From NCBI RefSeq assembly GCF_000378245.1, contig NZ_KB899501.1, positions 62,001 to 126,000 of the forward strand: a stretch of DNA of 64,000 bases, in the 5' to 3' direction. Under the pieces are notes generated by a model. The model did no database searches. It saw only the letters and a program-made list of their open reading frames with translations, and was not told where the DNA came from. Source of the stretch: Aromatoleum toluclasticum ATCC 700605 (lineage in GTDB: Bacteria; Pseudomonadota; Gammaproteobacteria; Burkholderiales; Rhodocyclaceae). The position numbers and the translations under genes are program-made. Positions 126 through 45,207 of this stretch are shown in pieces. Position 1 is the first letter of the stretch; the number at the start of each line of letters is the position of its first letter.

Positions 126-710
126 TCAGGCGAAGTTCTTCGCGGCGAAGTCCCAGTTGGCGAGGCTGTTCAGGAAGGTCGCGACGAAATCGGGACGACG
201 GTTGCGGTAGTCGATGTAGTAGGCGTGTTCCCACACGTCGATACAGAGCAGGGCCTTGTCGCCGGTCGTCAGCGGGGTGCCGGCGGCGCCCATGTTGACG
301 ATGTCGACGCTGCCGTCGGCCTTCTTCACCAGCCACGTCCAGCCCGAACCGAAGTTGCCCACGGCCGAGGTCGTGAAGGCCTTCTTGAAGTCCTCGAACG
401 AGCCCCACTTGGCCTTGATCGCCTCGGCCAGCGCGCCCGTCGGCTCCCCGCCGCCGTTCGGCTTCATGCCGTTCCAGAAGAAGGTGTGGTTCCACACCTG
501 CGCGGAGTTGTTATACACGCCGCCAGCCGGGGCCTTCTTGATGATCGCCTCGAGGTCGAGGTTCTCGTACTCGGTACCCTTGATCAGGTTGTTCAGGTTG
601 GTTACATAGGCCTGATGGTGCTTGCCGTAGTGGAACTCCATGGTCTCGGCCGAGATGTGCGGAGCCAGGGCGTCCTTCGCGTAGGGCAGGGGGGGCAGGG
701 TATGTTCCAT
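126..710 (-). CDS. sodB: Superoxide dismutase [Fe]
   Basis: Cytoplasmic enzyme that converts superoxide to hydrogen peroxide and oxygen. The 194-aa length is normal for dimeric Fe/Mn SODs. All four metal ligands are visible: His27 (in HYGKHHQAY), His75 (NHTFFW), Asp158 and His162 (DVWEHAYY). The [12 protein letters not shown] and [10 protein letters not shown] stretches are typical of the Fe-type branch; Fe rather than Mn is inferred from that resemblance. The ATG is preceded by a strong Shine-Dalgarno AGGAAGGAGA. It appears monocistronic, with its own promoter at 761-790 and a hairpin downstream. In an organism switching between oxygen and anoxia it would protect iron-sulphur enzymes. Confidence 0.96.
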
Positions 711-31420: not shown

Positions 31421-31624
31421 ATGGAAAGTCTTTACATCCTCGTGCCGCTTTCGGTGGTGCTGGTGTTCGTGATCGGCGCGATCTTCTGGTGGTCGCTGCG
31501 CTCGGGTCAGTACGATGACATGGAAGGGCCCGCCTATCGCATGCTGATGGACGACCGTGACCTGCCCGAAAGCCGGAAGCCGGAACAGTCCGATGACACT
31601 CCCTCGCAGATCAAAAAACAGTGA
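31421..31624 (+). CDS. ccoS: cbb3-type oxidase assembly protein CcoS
   Basis: 67-aa single-pass membrane protein: helix LYILVPLSVVLVFVIGAIFW, then SLRSGQYDDMEGPAYRMLMDD, the CcoS/FixS signature. Required in other bacteria for cofactor insertion into cbb3 oxidase. It follows ccoI after six bases. A GC-rich hairpin (GCGGCG 31636-31641 with CGCCGC 31653-31658) lies just past the stop and may weakly end the ccoIS message. Confidence 0.93.
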   Translation: MESLYILVPLSVVLVFVIGAIFWWSLRSGQYDDMEGPAYRMLMDDRDLPESRKPEQSDDTPSQIKKQ

Positions 31625-31668: not shown

Positions 31669-31710
31669 TTGACCTACGTCAACGCCCTCGAGGACGAGGA
31701 TTGGCATACT
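31669..31710 (+). promoter_or_regulatory. FNR/ANR-type box with class II spaced -10
   Basis: TTGACCTACGTCAA (31669-31682) is a perfect TTGAC-N4-GTCAA palindrome. CATACT (31705-31710) is centred 32 bp from the palindrome centre, precisely the geometry of an FNR site at -41.5, which predicts a start near 31717. An fnr gene (44461-45207) is present in the window. It is expected to fire under low oxygen. Its first product appears to be the short terminated RNA described next, with ccoN some 300 bases downstream. Confidence 0.78.
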
Positions 31711-31716
31711 TTTCCT

Positions 31717-31823
31717 ACGGTTTTCGAGATTGGTGCGTCGCGATGCGAGCGCGCCAATCAGGTAAGGAATTTTTGTCTCTCTGTTGGGGTTGGGGGTGCG
31801 CTTGATGCGCACCCTTTTTTTTT
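31717..31823 (+). ncRNA. Putative FNR-dependent small RNA between ccoS and ccoN
   Basis: Between the class II FNR promoter and a textbook terminator lies an about 107-base segment with no credible reading frame. It starts with a strong hairpin: 31728-31737 pairs with 31750-31759 (ten pairs, one G-U), topped by TCGC/GCGA. An unpaired, U/C-rich linker follows (31761-31790, including TTTTTGTCTCTCTG), suitable as a target-pairing region, then the terminator stem GGGTGCGC/GCGCACCC and T9. The layout resembles sRNAs such as FnrS. The alternative is a ccoN leader with an attenuator. Start and existence of the RNA are inferred. Confidence 0.55.
31794..31823 (+). terminator. Strong intrinsic terminator upstream of ccoN
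   Basis: GGGTGCGC (31794-31801), loop TTGAT, GCGCACCC (31807-31814), then nine T residues (31815-31823). It ends the putative small RNA, or alternatively the ccoIS message, 190 bases before ccoN. Confidence 0.92.
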
Positions 31824-32011
31824 GCCTGGCATTTTTGCGTATGATGGATTAATCATAACCATGCTGGCAACAGGTTTTTTTTGTAATTGGGTATTTTCAC
31901 CCACTACTGCAGTGCAATAGAATGTCGGCCGTTGTCACGAGTCCGTGGCGAGCCGTTGCACATGCTCTCCCGGACTGGTGCAGAGGTTTTCTTCATCTCA
32001 AGGGGAGTTCC

Positions 32012-33436
32012 ATGCAATCGCAGGCGACTTATAACTACAACGTCGTCCGCCAGTTCTCCATCATGACCGTGGTATGGGGCGTGGTGGGCATGCTGGTGGG
32101 AGTGATCGTCGCGGCGCAGCTTGTCTGGCCCGAGCTCAATCTGGGCGAGTGGCTGCATTTCGGCAGGCTGCGTCCGCTTCACACGAACGCAGTGATCTTT
32201 GCCTTCGGTGGCTGTGCGCTGTTCGCGACCTCGTATTTCGTCGTGCAGCGGACGTGTCACACGCCGCTGTTCGCGCCGAAGCTGGCGGCCTTCACATTCT
32301 GGGGTTGGCAGTTGGTGATCGTGCTGGCGGTGATTACCTTGCCGCTGGGCTTCACCTCCGGCAAGGAATACGCCGAGCTCGAGTGGCCGATCGACATCCT
32401 GATCGCCGTGGTGTGGGTGTCCTATGCGATCGTGTTCTTCGGCACGATCGCCAAGCGCAAGACCAGTCATATCTATGTTGCGAACTGGTTCTTCGGTGGC
32501 TTCATCCTCACGGTTGCGCTGCTCCACATCGTCAATAGCGCTGCACTCCCGGTCACCCTGACCAAGTCCTACTCCGCCTATGCCGGCGTTCAGGACGCGA
32601 TGATCCAGTGGTGGTATGGCCACAATGCGGTGGGTTTCTTCCTGACCGCGGGCTTCCTGGGGATGATGTACTACTTCGTGCCGAAGCAGGCCGAGCGCCC
32701 CGTCTATTCCTACCGCCTGTCGGTCGTTCACTTCTGGGCGCTGATCTTCACCTACATGTGGGCAGGTCCGCATCACCTGCACTACACGGCGCTGCCCGAC
32801 TGGACCCAGTCGGTGGGGATGATCTTCTCGCTGATCCTGCTGGCGCCGTCGTGGGGCGGCATGATCAACGGCGTGATGACCCTCTCGGGCGCATGGCACA
32901 AGCTGCGCACCGATCCGATCCTGAAGTTCCTGATCACCGCGCTTTCCTTCTACGGCATGTCGACCTTCGAAGGTCCGATGATGTCGATCAAGACGGTCAA
33001 TGCCCTGTCGCACTACACCGACTGGACCATCGGCCACGTCCATTCTGGCGCTCTGGGCTGGGTTGCGATGATCTCGATCGGCTCGATGTACTACCTGATC
33101 CCGCGCATGTACGGCAAGACCCAGATGTACTCGGTCGGCCTGATCAACGCACACTTCTGGATCGCGACGATCGGTATCGTGTTGTACATCGCTTCCATGT
33201 GGATTGCCGGTGTGATGCAGGGTCTGATGTGGCGCGCCACGAACCCGGACGGAACGCTGACCTATTCCTTCGTCGAGGGCGTGAAGGCGAGCTACCCGTT
33301 CTGGACGATCCGCCTGCTGGGCGGTGTCCTGTTCCTGACCGGCATGCTCATCATGTTCTACAACATGGTCCGGACGATGGCAGGCGAGAAGGCGTATGAG
33401 GCGCCCGTGGTCGCCCCCGCTGCTGCCCACGCATAA
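32012..33436 (+). CDS. ccoN: cbb3-type cytochrome c oxidase subunit I
   Basis: Catalytic heme-copper oxidase subunit, high-affinity terminal oxidase for micro-oxic respiration. 474 aa from ATG 32012 behind AAGGGGAG; an upstream extension to 31922 lacks family resemblance. About 12 helices are expected. Heme and CuB ligands lie in [45 protein letters not shown] and [11 protein letters not shown], all canonical for CcoN. The leader between the terminator at 31823 and the start is AT-rich, with T8 runs and a TATGAT-N6-ATCATA repeat (31840-31857). Confidence 0.97.
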
Positions 33437-38090: not shown

Positions 38091-38104
38091 TTGATTCCCG
38101 TCAA
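38091..38104. promoter_or_regulatory. FNR-type box between usp and the beta-CASP gene
   Basis: TTGATTCCCGTCAA matches TTGAT-N4-GTCAA. Its centre is 53 bp from the centre of the usp -10, placing it near -61.5/-62.5, the class I FNR position. It is also 55 bases before the divergent metallohydrolase ATG and could activate both directions. Confidence 0.72.
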
Positions 38105-44460: not shown

Positions 44461-45207
44461 TCAGGGGCGTGACGAAGGGTGCTGGATCAGCCGCTTCAGG
44501 CCGACGATGTCCAGAATGCGAATGTGCTTCTGCTGCACTGCGATCAGGCCCTCGTCCTGGAACTTCGAAAAGGCGCGTGATACCGTTTCGAGCTTCAGGC
44601 CGAGATAGGAGCCGATCTCCTCGCGCGTCATGCGCAAGTGGAACTCCGCCGGAGAGAAGCCGCGCGCCGTGAAACGTTGCGACATGTTGAGCAGGAAGGC
44701 CGCCAAGCGCTCTTCCGCACGCATCGAGCCGAGGAGCGTCATCACGCCATGATCGCGCACGATCTCGCGGCTCATCACCTTGTGGAACTGCAACTGCAGC
44801 CCCTCGACCACCCGCGACAGCTCTTCGAGCTTGCCGTACGCGATCACGCAGACTTCGCTGTCCTCCAGCGCGATTGCGTTGCAGGAGTGCGCCTCGGTGC
44901 TGATGCCGTCGAGGCCCAGCATCTCGCCTGTCATCTGGAAGCCGGTGACCTGCTCTCGCCCGTCCTCGAGCAGCACGTCGGTCTTGAACGACCCGGCGCG
45001 GATCGCATAGATCGCTTCGAAGGGATCGCCCGCGCGATACAGATGCTGTTGCCGCTTGATCTTGCGGCGCGCGCCGACGAGTTCGTCGAGACGGTCGATT
45101 TCCGATTCCGACATCCCGAACGGCAGGCACAACTCGACAAGGTTGCACTGGGAACATGCGACCTTCAGACTCGCAACTGTAATCGGCACCGTCGCCTTCA
45201 TTTGCAC
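44461..45207 (-). CDS. fnr: Oxygen-sensing regulator FNR (ANR/FnrN type)
   Basis: 248-aa global anaerobic regulator. Ligands for the 4Fe-4S cluster are Cys18, Cys21 and Cys27 (ACSQCNLVELC) and Cys109 (AHSCNA), matching FNR spacing. The recognition helix GLKLETVSRAFSK has E-xx-SR, predicting TTGAT-N4-ATCAA-like targets; four such boxes lie in this window (31669, 38091, 41401, 45267). ATG 45207 or the ATG two codons later are both possible starts. It is divergent from hemN and convergent with the hemerythrin gene. Confidence 0.95.
   Translation of the reverse strand: MQMKATVPITVASLKVACSQCNLVELCLPFGMSESEIDRLDELVGARRKIKRQQHLYRAGDPFEAIYAIRAGSFKTDVLLEDGREQVTGFQMTGEMLGLDGISTEAHSCNAIALEDSEVCVIAYGKLEELSRVVEGLQLQFHKVMSREIVRDHGVMTLLGSMRAEERLAAFLLNMSQRFTARGFSPAEFHLRMTREEIGSYLGLKLETVSRAFSKFQDEGLIAVQQKHIRILDIVGLKRLIQHPSSRP

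Follow-up and report, generated by a model that had tools for sequence, protein, structure and literature searches.

The ccoS-ccoN gap and its predicted transcript

The window analysed here is a stretch of 64,000 nucleotides from Aromatoleum toluclasticum ATCC 700605, in which the gap between ccoS and ccoN holds the elements of a putative small RNA (sRNA) gene. The relevant features, in window coordinates, are as follows.

31421..31624, plus strand: ccoS, the upstream neighbour (NCBIfam TIGR00847)
31669..31682, plus strand: FNR box TTGACCTACGTCAA, a perfect palindrome centred at 31675.5
31705..31710, plus strand: -10 element CATACT, at class II spacing from the FNR box
31717..31823, plus strand: predicted sRNA transcript of 107 nt, its start placed by promoter geometry
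31728..31759, plus strand: 5' hairpin of 10 bp, with arms 31728-31737 and 31750-31759
31775..31797, plus strand: conserved pairing core GTCTCTCTGTTGGGGTTGGGGGT
31794..31823, plus strand: intrinsic terminator, with an 8-bp stem (31794-31801 and 31807-31814) and nine T (31815-31823)
31894..31923, plus strand: sigma-70-like ccoN promoter candidate 3' of the terminator, TTTTCA-18 nt-TAGAAT, a match to consensus only
32012..33436, plus strand: ccoN, the downstream neighbour (NCBIfam TIGR00780)
44461..45207, minus strand: fnr, whose product is the likely activator, located nearby (NCBIfam NF008365, 249 bits against a cut-off of 228)

An earlier note on this DNA had described a perfect FNR box, a CATACT hexamer at class II distance, a ten-pair hairpin and a terminator made of an 8-bp stem and nine T, and all of these can be read from the sequence at the positions listed above. 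With the FNR centre at -41.5, the predicted +1 is A31717, and the FNR box, the -10 element and the terminator thus delimit an RNA of the length (about 107 nt) that had been proposed. The linker, which reads UUUUUGUCUCUCUGUUGGGGUUGGGG, had been called U/C-rich; this description fits its first half, whereas the second half (GUUGGGGUUGGGGG) is G-rich and lies within the most conserved part of the element. The ATG of ccoN at 32012 lies 189 nt past the terminator end. The FNR-box pattern was found four times in the 64-kb window against 0.12 expected. Other perfect FNR boxes in the window are located at 38091, 41401 and 45267, the last of which adjoins fnr. It should be noted that the FNR-type promoter at 31705..31710 was not among the results of a sigma-70 promoter scan, which also demands a -35 hexamer; a class II activated promoter can do without this hexamer. 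A terminator scan of the window recovered the site, with three terminators found against 1.7 expected, a result that is unconvincing alone.

The predicted 107-nt RNA folds at -43.2 kcal/mol (z -3.7), a value equalled by none of 200 shuffled sequences. Within the genus, the 5' hairpin carries paired changes, both partners having changed in 5 of its 10 pairs. When this hairpin and the terminator were considered together in the genus, 97.2% of cells were paired, compared with at most 60.5% for slid versions of the structure, and the covariation score exceeded all of 500 shuffles; the two helices together have six pairs in which both partners changed, a count reached by 28 of the 500.

Conservation across the family and relation to ccoN

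Conservation of the element in relatives, for which the earlier note had proposed a covariance search of the ccoS-ccoN gap, was found across the genus and much of the family. The 171-bp region was matched in all 17 genus genomes, three of which matched only over ∼60 nt around the core and terminator. In the genus alignment an invariant stretch runs from the linker into the terminator, and the flanks drift. Searching 199 family genomes with the 23-nt core (up to two mismatches) gave matches in 116 of them, belonging to 40 of 68 genera, and a reversed-core control in the same genomes gave none; a variant of the core with U replacing one C was found in further genera. Among 80 named ccoN loci, the core was present in 16 (for example, Denitromonas, Accumulibacter, Dechloromonas and Tepidiphilus) and absent from 64, including those of Zoogloea dura and Thauera phenolivorans.

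From part of the matching loci we compiled 120 genes on the basis of up to two mismatches in an 18-nt core, at least six T and an inverted repeat of at least four, with duplicates removed. Core conservation is partly built into this selection, yet 14 consecutive nucleotides were invariant, with zero mismatches, in the 97 distinct core-plus-terminator sequences. The terminator stem is variable in the same 97 sequences, with five pairs changed on both sides. An exact TTGAY-N4-RTCAA FNR box is located upstream of 115 of the 120 genes, and 107 of these 115 have a -10-like hexamer in the class II register (within 1 nt). The distance from the FNR box to TCTCTG ranges from 48 to 153 nt and the constraint sits on the core. 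The stretch between predicted start and core varies from none to 105 nt among the 120 genes, which indicates that the 5' hairpin is optional; it is variable or missing in other genera.

A covariance model was searched against 300 genomes of the order, the family included, with strict filters through which weak members may escape, and gave matches in 21 genomes. Eleven of these were strong, nine in the family and two outside it (G380 and G399), and all 11 adjoin ccoS and ccoN. The weak matches in the other 10 genomes (best E values from 4.6e-6 to 6.8e-4) look like unrelated terminators, with no ccoS or ccoN match within ∼1.5 kb on either side, and were rejected. In viral contigs, the 18-nt core had no exact match.

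Two interpretations had been put forward for this locus, an oxygen-responsive sRNA or an attenuator-type leader of ccoN, and the present data strongly favour the sRNA. If the RNA were a leader, the FNR promoter would be the ccoN promoter and the terminator would tune read-through, which agrees with the fact that ccoN follows 106 of the 120 compiled genes. However, a second exact FNR box lies between the terminator and ccoN in 93 of these 106 loci (one more has a box with one mismatch). Thus, ccoN mostly appears to be served by a dedicated FNR box, with the sRNA forming a separate unit, which disfavours a function as attenuator only. In addition, the predicted fold (MFE and centroid only) contains no competing antiterminator, and a separate ccoN promoter candidate exists 3' of the terminator, in a block that is kept in the genus alignment. 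A leader function also leaves unexplained both the invariant 14-nt core and the complements at unrelated start codons described below, whereas conservation of the FNR box, -10 element, core and terminator extends over the family. A point in favour of a leader concerns the subclade of the window, which makes up 10 of the 16 distinct genus sequences: these 10 loci, together with L173 and L175, have no FNR box (zero or one mismatch) between terminator and ccoN, and FNR control of ccoN in this subclade would need read-through. On balance, we consider it unlikely that the RNA is simply a ccoN leader, but in the subclade of the window the sRNA gene may additionally act as one.

Two further observations were made around ccoN. 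In the region corresponding to window positions 31824-32011, where the subclade lacks the second FNR box, a block (TTGGGTATTTTCACCCACTACTGCAGTGCAATAGAATG) is nevertheless strongly conserved. At L173:547-593 and L177:433-480 (minus strand), the core and terminator directly follow the stop codon of an OmpW-family gene (PF03922) located before ccoN, and no exact FNR box is present within 170 nt 5' of the core in either locus. Given this position, the RNA there would be a 3' UTR product, formed by the 3' end of an mRNA.

Complementary sites near start codons and predicted targets

Secondary matches of the region proved to be its reverse complement, located just before start codons. With up to three mismatches, a complementary 20-mer had 284 matches in 156 of the 199 family genomes, sRNA genes included, and 128 of these matches exceed one per genome, compared with 33 for the reversed pattern. 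Position relative to start codons was analysed for 69 non-sRNA sites, which comprise sites among the matches listed for the 20-mer (L218-L277 minus the sRNA gene L240, plus L297) and nine sites from the core search; several listed matches (contig edges, ferredoxin sites already included and further sRNA genes) were left out. In 40 of the 69, belonging to 28 distinct genes, the site is followed at 3-17 nt by the ATG of an open reading frame of at least 60 aa, which is not the case for the other 29. The same criterion was satisfied by none of the 69 sites on the opposite strand and by 104 of 1104 displaced windows. It should be noted that tusE alone provides 8 of the 40 sites and that one other (L247) belongs to a doubtful reading frame.

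One could suppose that such sites are an independent start-codon signal (such as a translation enhancer or a site for a protein) that the sRNA core resembles by chance, or that the core titrates something else. The sites do hold a Shine-Dalgarno-like half, and a scrambled pattern retaining this half was found before an ATG in 6 of its 21 matches (5 of 21 on the other strand). The position of the sites is therefore partly due to the Shine-Dalgarno half, but the number of matches is not: the C-rich half lies outside any Shine-Dalgarno sequence, and scrambling it left only the 21 matches, all with three mismatches, against the 128 beyond one per genome. Moreover, the sites carry the antisense and not the sense sequence of the RNA, and target base 18 follows the sRNA variant, being G in 27 of 34 sites facing the C variant and A in five of six facing the U variant (Fisher p 0.006, with lineages not corrected for kinship). 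An independent signal is thus very improbable, and pairing with the sRNA remains our preferred explanation of these sites.

At several loci the plain start codon is replaced by an apparent hairpin, judged by eye and mostly followed by a T run, beside the complementary site: L228 and L235 (G144, G174), L230 and L232 (G042, G101), L247 and L248. Such antisense sites are possible sponge RNAs for the sRNA.

Functions were assigned to the predicted targets with Pfam or NCBIfam, in most cases on the basis of N-terminal fragments. Sites 3-17 nt before an ATG were found for oxidative stress proteins (Fe superoxide dismutase, Cu/Zn superoxide dismutase, peroxiredoxin, thiol peroxidase, glutathione peroxidase and glutathione S-transferase), for enzymes acting on aromatics (BoxC of aerobic benzoate degradation, 4-hydroxybenzoate 3-monooxygenase and catechol 2,3-dioxygenase), and for cytochrome bd subunit I, aconitase B, IspH, a Rieske protein and TusE. 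Rubredoxin, 2Fe-2S and 4Fe-4S ferredoxins, isocitrate lyase and a WrbA-like quinone oxidoreductase have sites farther from the ATG or shorter reading frames. Shorter patterns that contain the ATG suggested a KshA-type Rieske oxygenase, 2-oxoglutarate dehydrogenase, ThiC, GTP cyclohydrolase II and a nitrite/sulphite reductase as further candidates, whose position is no evidence because the ATG is built into these patterns. Some predicted targets are off the aerobic theme (NifB, phasin, substrate-binding proteins, allantoicase and the nitrite/sulphite reductase domain); the set varies between genera, and many targets are single cases. By prediction, therefore, the targets are mainly aerobic or oxidative-stress genes, with exceptions such as NifB.

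Duplex z-scores for individual leaders were based on 100 or 200 single-base shuffles. In the genome of the window, the ispH leader pairs with the sRNA at -46.9 kcal/mol (z -5.2), and a z of -3 or lower was reached by this leader in 11 of 17 genus genomes, the six others being L424 and five EbN1/BH72-like species (L428-L432). For tusE, 9 of 14 closer homologues had a z of -4 or lower, one of the remaining five (L460) having a doubtful start; distant DsrC paralogues, used as a negative control, gave 1 of 16 at -3 or lower. The sodB leader reached -3 or lower in 7 of 17 genus genomes, not including the genome of the window, whose own sodB (window 186-710, minus strand) is unsupported as a target (z -1.3 and -1.0 in two runs). 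A short-chain dehydrogenase of the same genome has a site in its first codons (frame read by eye), and the two shorter ATG-containing patterns had no match in this genome. ccoO (window 33452) was the best of 75 leaders of open reading frames as a local target, but was rejected as there was no difference between 16 loci with the core and 61 without it (p 0.58).

The leader of a 4Fe-4S ferredoxin gene deserves separate mention. In the genome of the window (L018), the only locus for which its pairing energy was computed, it is a near-continuous complement of sRNA nt 62-98 (-71.9 kcal/mol, z -9.5), and such pairing requires that the terminator stem be opened. In nine genus loci (L018-L026), this leader resembles a hairpin that is approximately the reverse complement of the 3' half of the sRNA, including the terminator stem.

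Relation to known sRNAs and proposed function

No Rfam family reached its gathering threshold in the window or in six related loci. AniS of Neisseria is an FNR-activated betaproteobacterial sRNA, and membership in its family (RF02274) was rejected because the match reached 17.5 bits and the gathering score is 50. The best sub-threshold scores were those of SorX (RF02784; 24.0 bits) and SorY (RF02651; 25.5 bits), far from their gathering scores of 46.6 and 111, respectively; these RNAs share with the ccoS-ccoN sRNA a CUGUUGG between a C/U run and the terminator, and are named for singlet-oxygen resistance, not for FNR. OmrA-B also scored far below its gathering score.

A further comparison is with enterobacterial FnrS, which two papers describe as an FNR-dependent sRNA that represses mRNAs of aerobic metabolism and oxidative stress, including that of SodB (PMC8139620, PMC8595263). 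The ccoS-ccoN sRNA resembles FnrS in its predicted FNR activation and in its predicted aerobic and oxidative-stress targets, but its gene sits between ccoS and ccoN and it would pair via another sequence. The FnrS family was absent from the Rfam covariance matches at the gathering score and even at E ≤ 5. The best reading is that the ccoS-ccoN sRNA is a functional analogue of FnrS, with homology not detected.

In design, the nearest betaproteobacterial sRNA is S17/bdhR1 (RF02278, Betaproteobacteria toxic sRNA), for which a Bordetella preprint describes a highly conserved stretch for pairing, Hfq-dependent repression and targeting of ribosome-binding sites (PMC11722255). The ccoS-ccoN sRNA might be the Rhodocyclaceae member of this group, already noted in Aromatoleum aromaticum: both have a pairing region opened by UGUCUC, a terminator and ribosome-binding-site targets, 27 identical nt are reported for A. 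aromaticum EbN1 in the same preprint, and RF02278 aligns end to end at L001:1615-1663. However, the gathering score is 50 and this alignment reaches 20.6 bits, and the text of the preprint mentions neither Fnr nor ccoN. According to that text, the 27 nt are also identical in Bordetella, Achromobacter, Ralstonia and Burkholderia (PMC11722255), whereas in the 300 genomes of the order our core model matched strongly in only two that do not belong to the family. Since few genomes of the order other than those of one family have the ccoS-ccoN core, we take the EbN1 homologue of S17 to be another RNA, and identity of the two seems highly unlikely. In a study on EbN1, FNR-type regulation is described and small RNAs are raised once as a possibility (PMC9765128), and the word sRNA does not occur in the text of a paper on the FNR regulon of Accumulibacter (PMC6446978). 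Among the best-ranked papers listed in our search of open-licence literature, no description of an sRNA between ccoS and ccoN was found. The suggestion that the RNA is undescribed thus agrees with both the Rfam and the literature searches, and it very probably represents a real sRNA family, undescribed within the literature searched.

Taken together, these results lead us to propose, with a probability of about 0.85, that the ccoS-ccoN gap contains a stand-alone gene for a trans-acting, FNR-activated and probably Hfq-dependent sRNA of ∼107 nt that represses genes of aerobic life, a Rhodocyclaceae counterpart of FnrS built on a different sequence. This proposal is based on sequence comparison. 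Promoter elements of its own and an intrinsic terminator, as well as a conserved seed with complementary sites in several mRNA leaders, are what is expected of a trans-acting sRNA, and the FNR box at -41.5 with its -10 element is what is expected of FNR activation. Hfq-type features are also present, namely a nine-T tail (in the other loci, at least six T were required for selection) and a genomic hfq gene (Hfq match of 103.4 bits). In the proposed mechanism, FNR would bind at -41.5 when oxygen falls, and transcription would start at ∼31717 and stop at the intrinsic terminator. The conserved stretch UCUCUCUGUUGGGGUUGGGG, by its complementarity, could then pair with the Shine-Dalgarno region of many mRNAs and block their translation, probably with Hfq. 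The outcome would mainly be less of the proteins that serve aerobic life or act in oxidative stress (superoxide dismutases, peroxidases, oxygenases, the aerobic benzoate pathway and cytochrome bd), fewer iron-sulphur proteins and less of the sulphur relay.

A wider scheme can be offered only tentatively, and we regard it as possible but doubtful. The sRNA may be the post-transcriptional half of a family-wide oxygen switch, in which one near-fixed 20-nt seed is kept beside the high-affinity oxidase and many leaders evolve to match it; the seed would appear as the 3' end of ompW mRNA in some lineages, face antisense sponges near terminators in others, and form part of an FNR-controlled ccoN leader in the subclade of the window.

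FNR-driven sRNAs are well studied in enterobacteria, and the Rhodocyclaceae are environmentally important as denitrifiers, degraders of aromatics and phosphorus accumulators; in the open-licence literature searched, no FNR-driven sRNA has been described for this family. The ccoS-ccoN sRNA offers a hypothesis for the anoxic shutdown of aerobic enzymes, such as the benzoate Box pathway, ring oxygenases, superoxide dismutase and peroxidases, and names the exact bases to mutate. An FnrS-like regulon that evolved independently from another sequence would show strong selection for this circuit.
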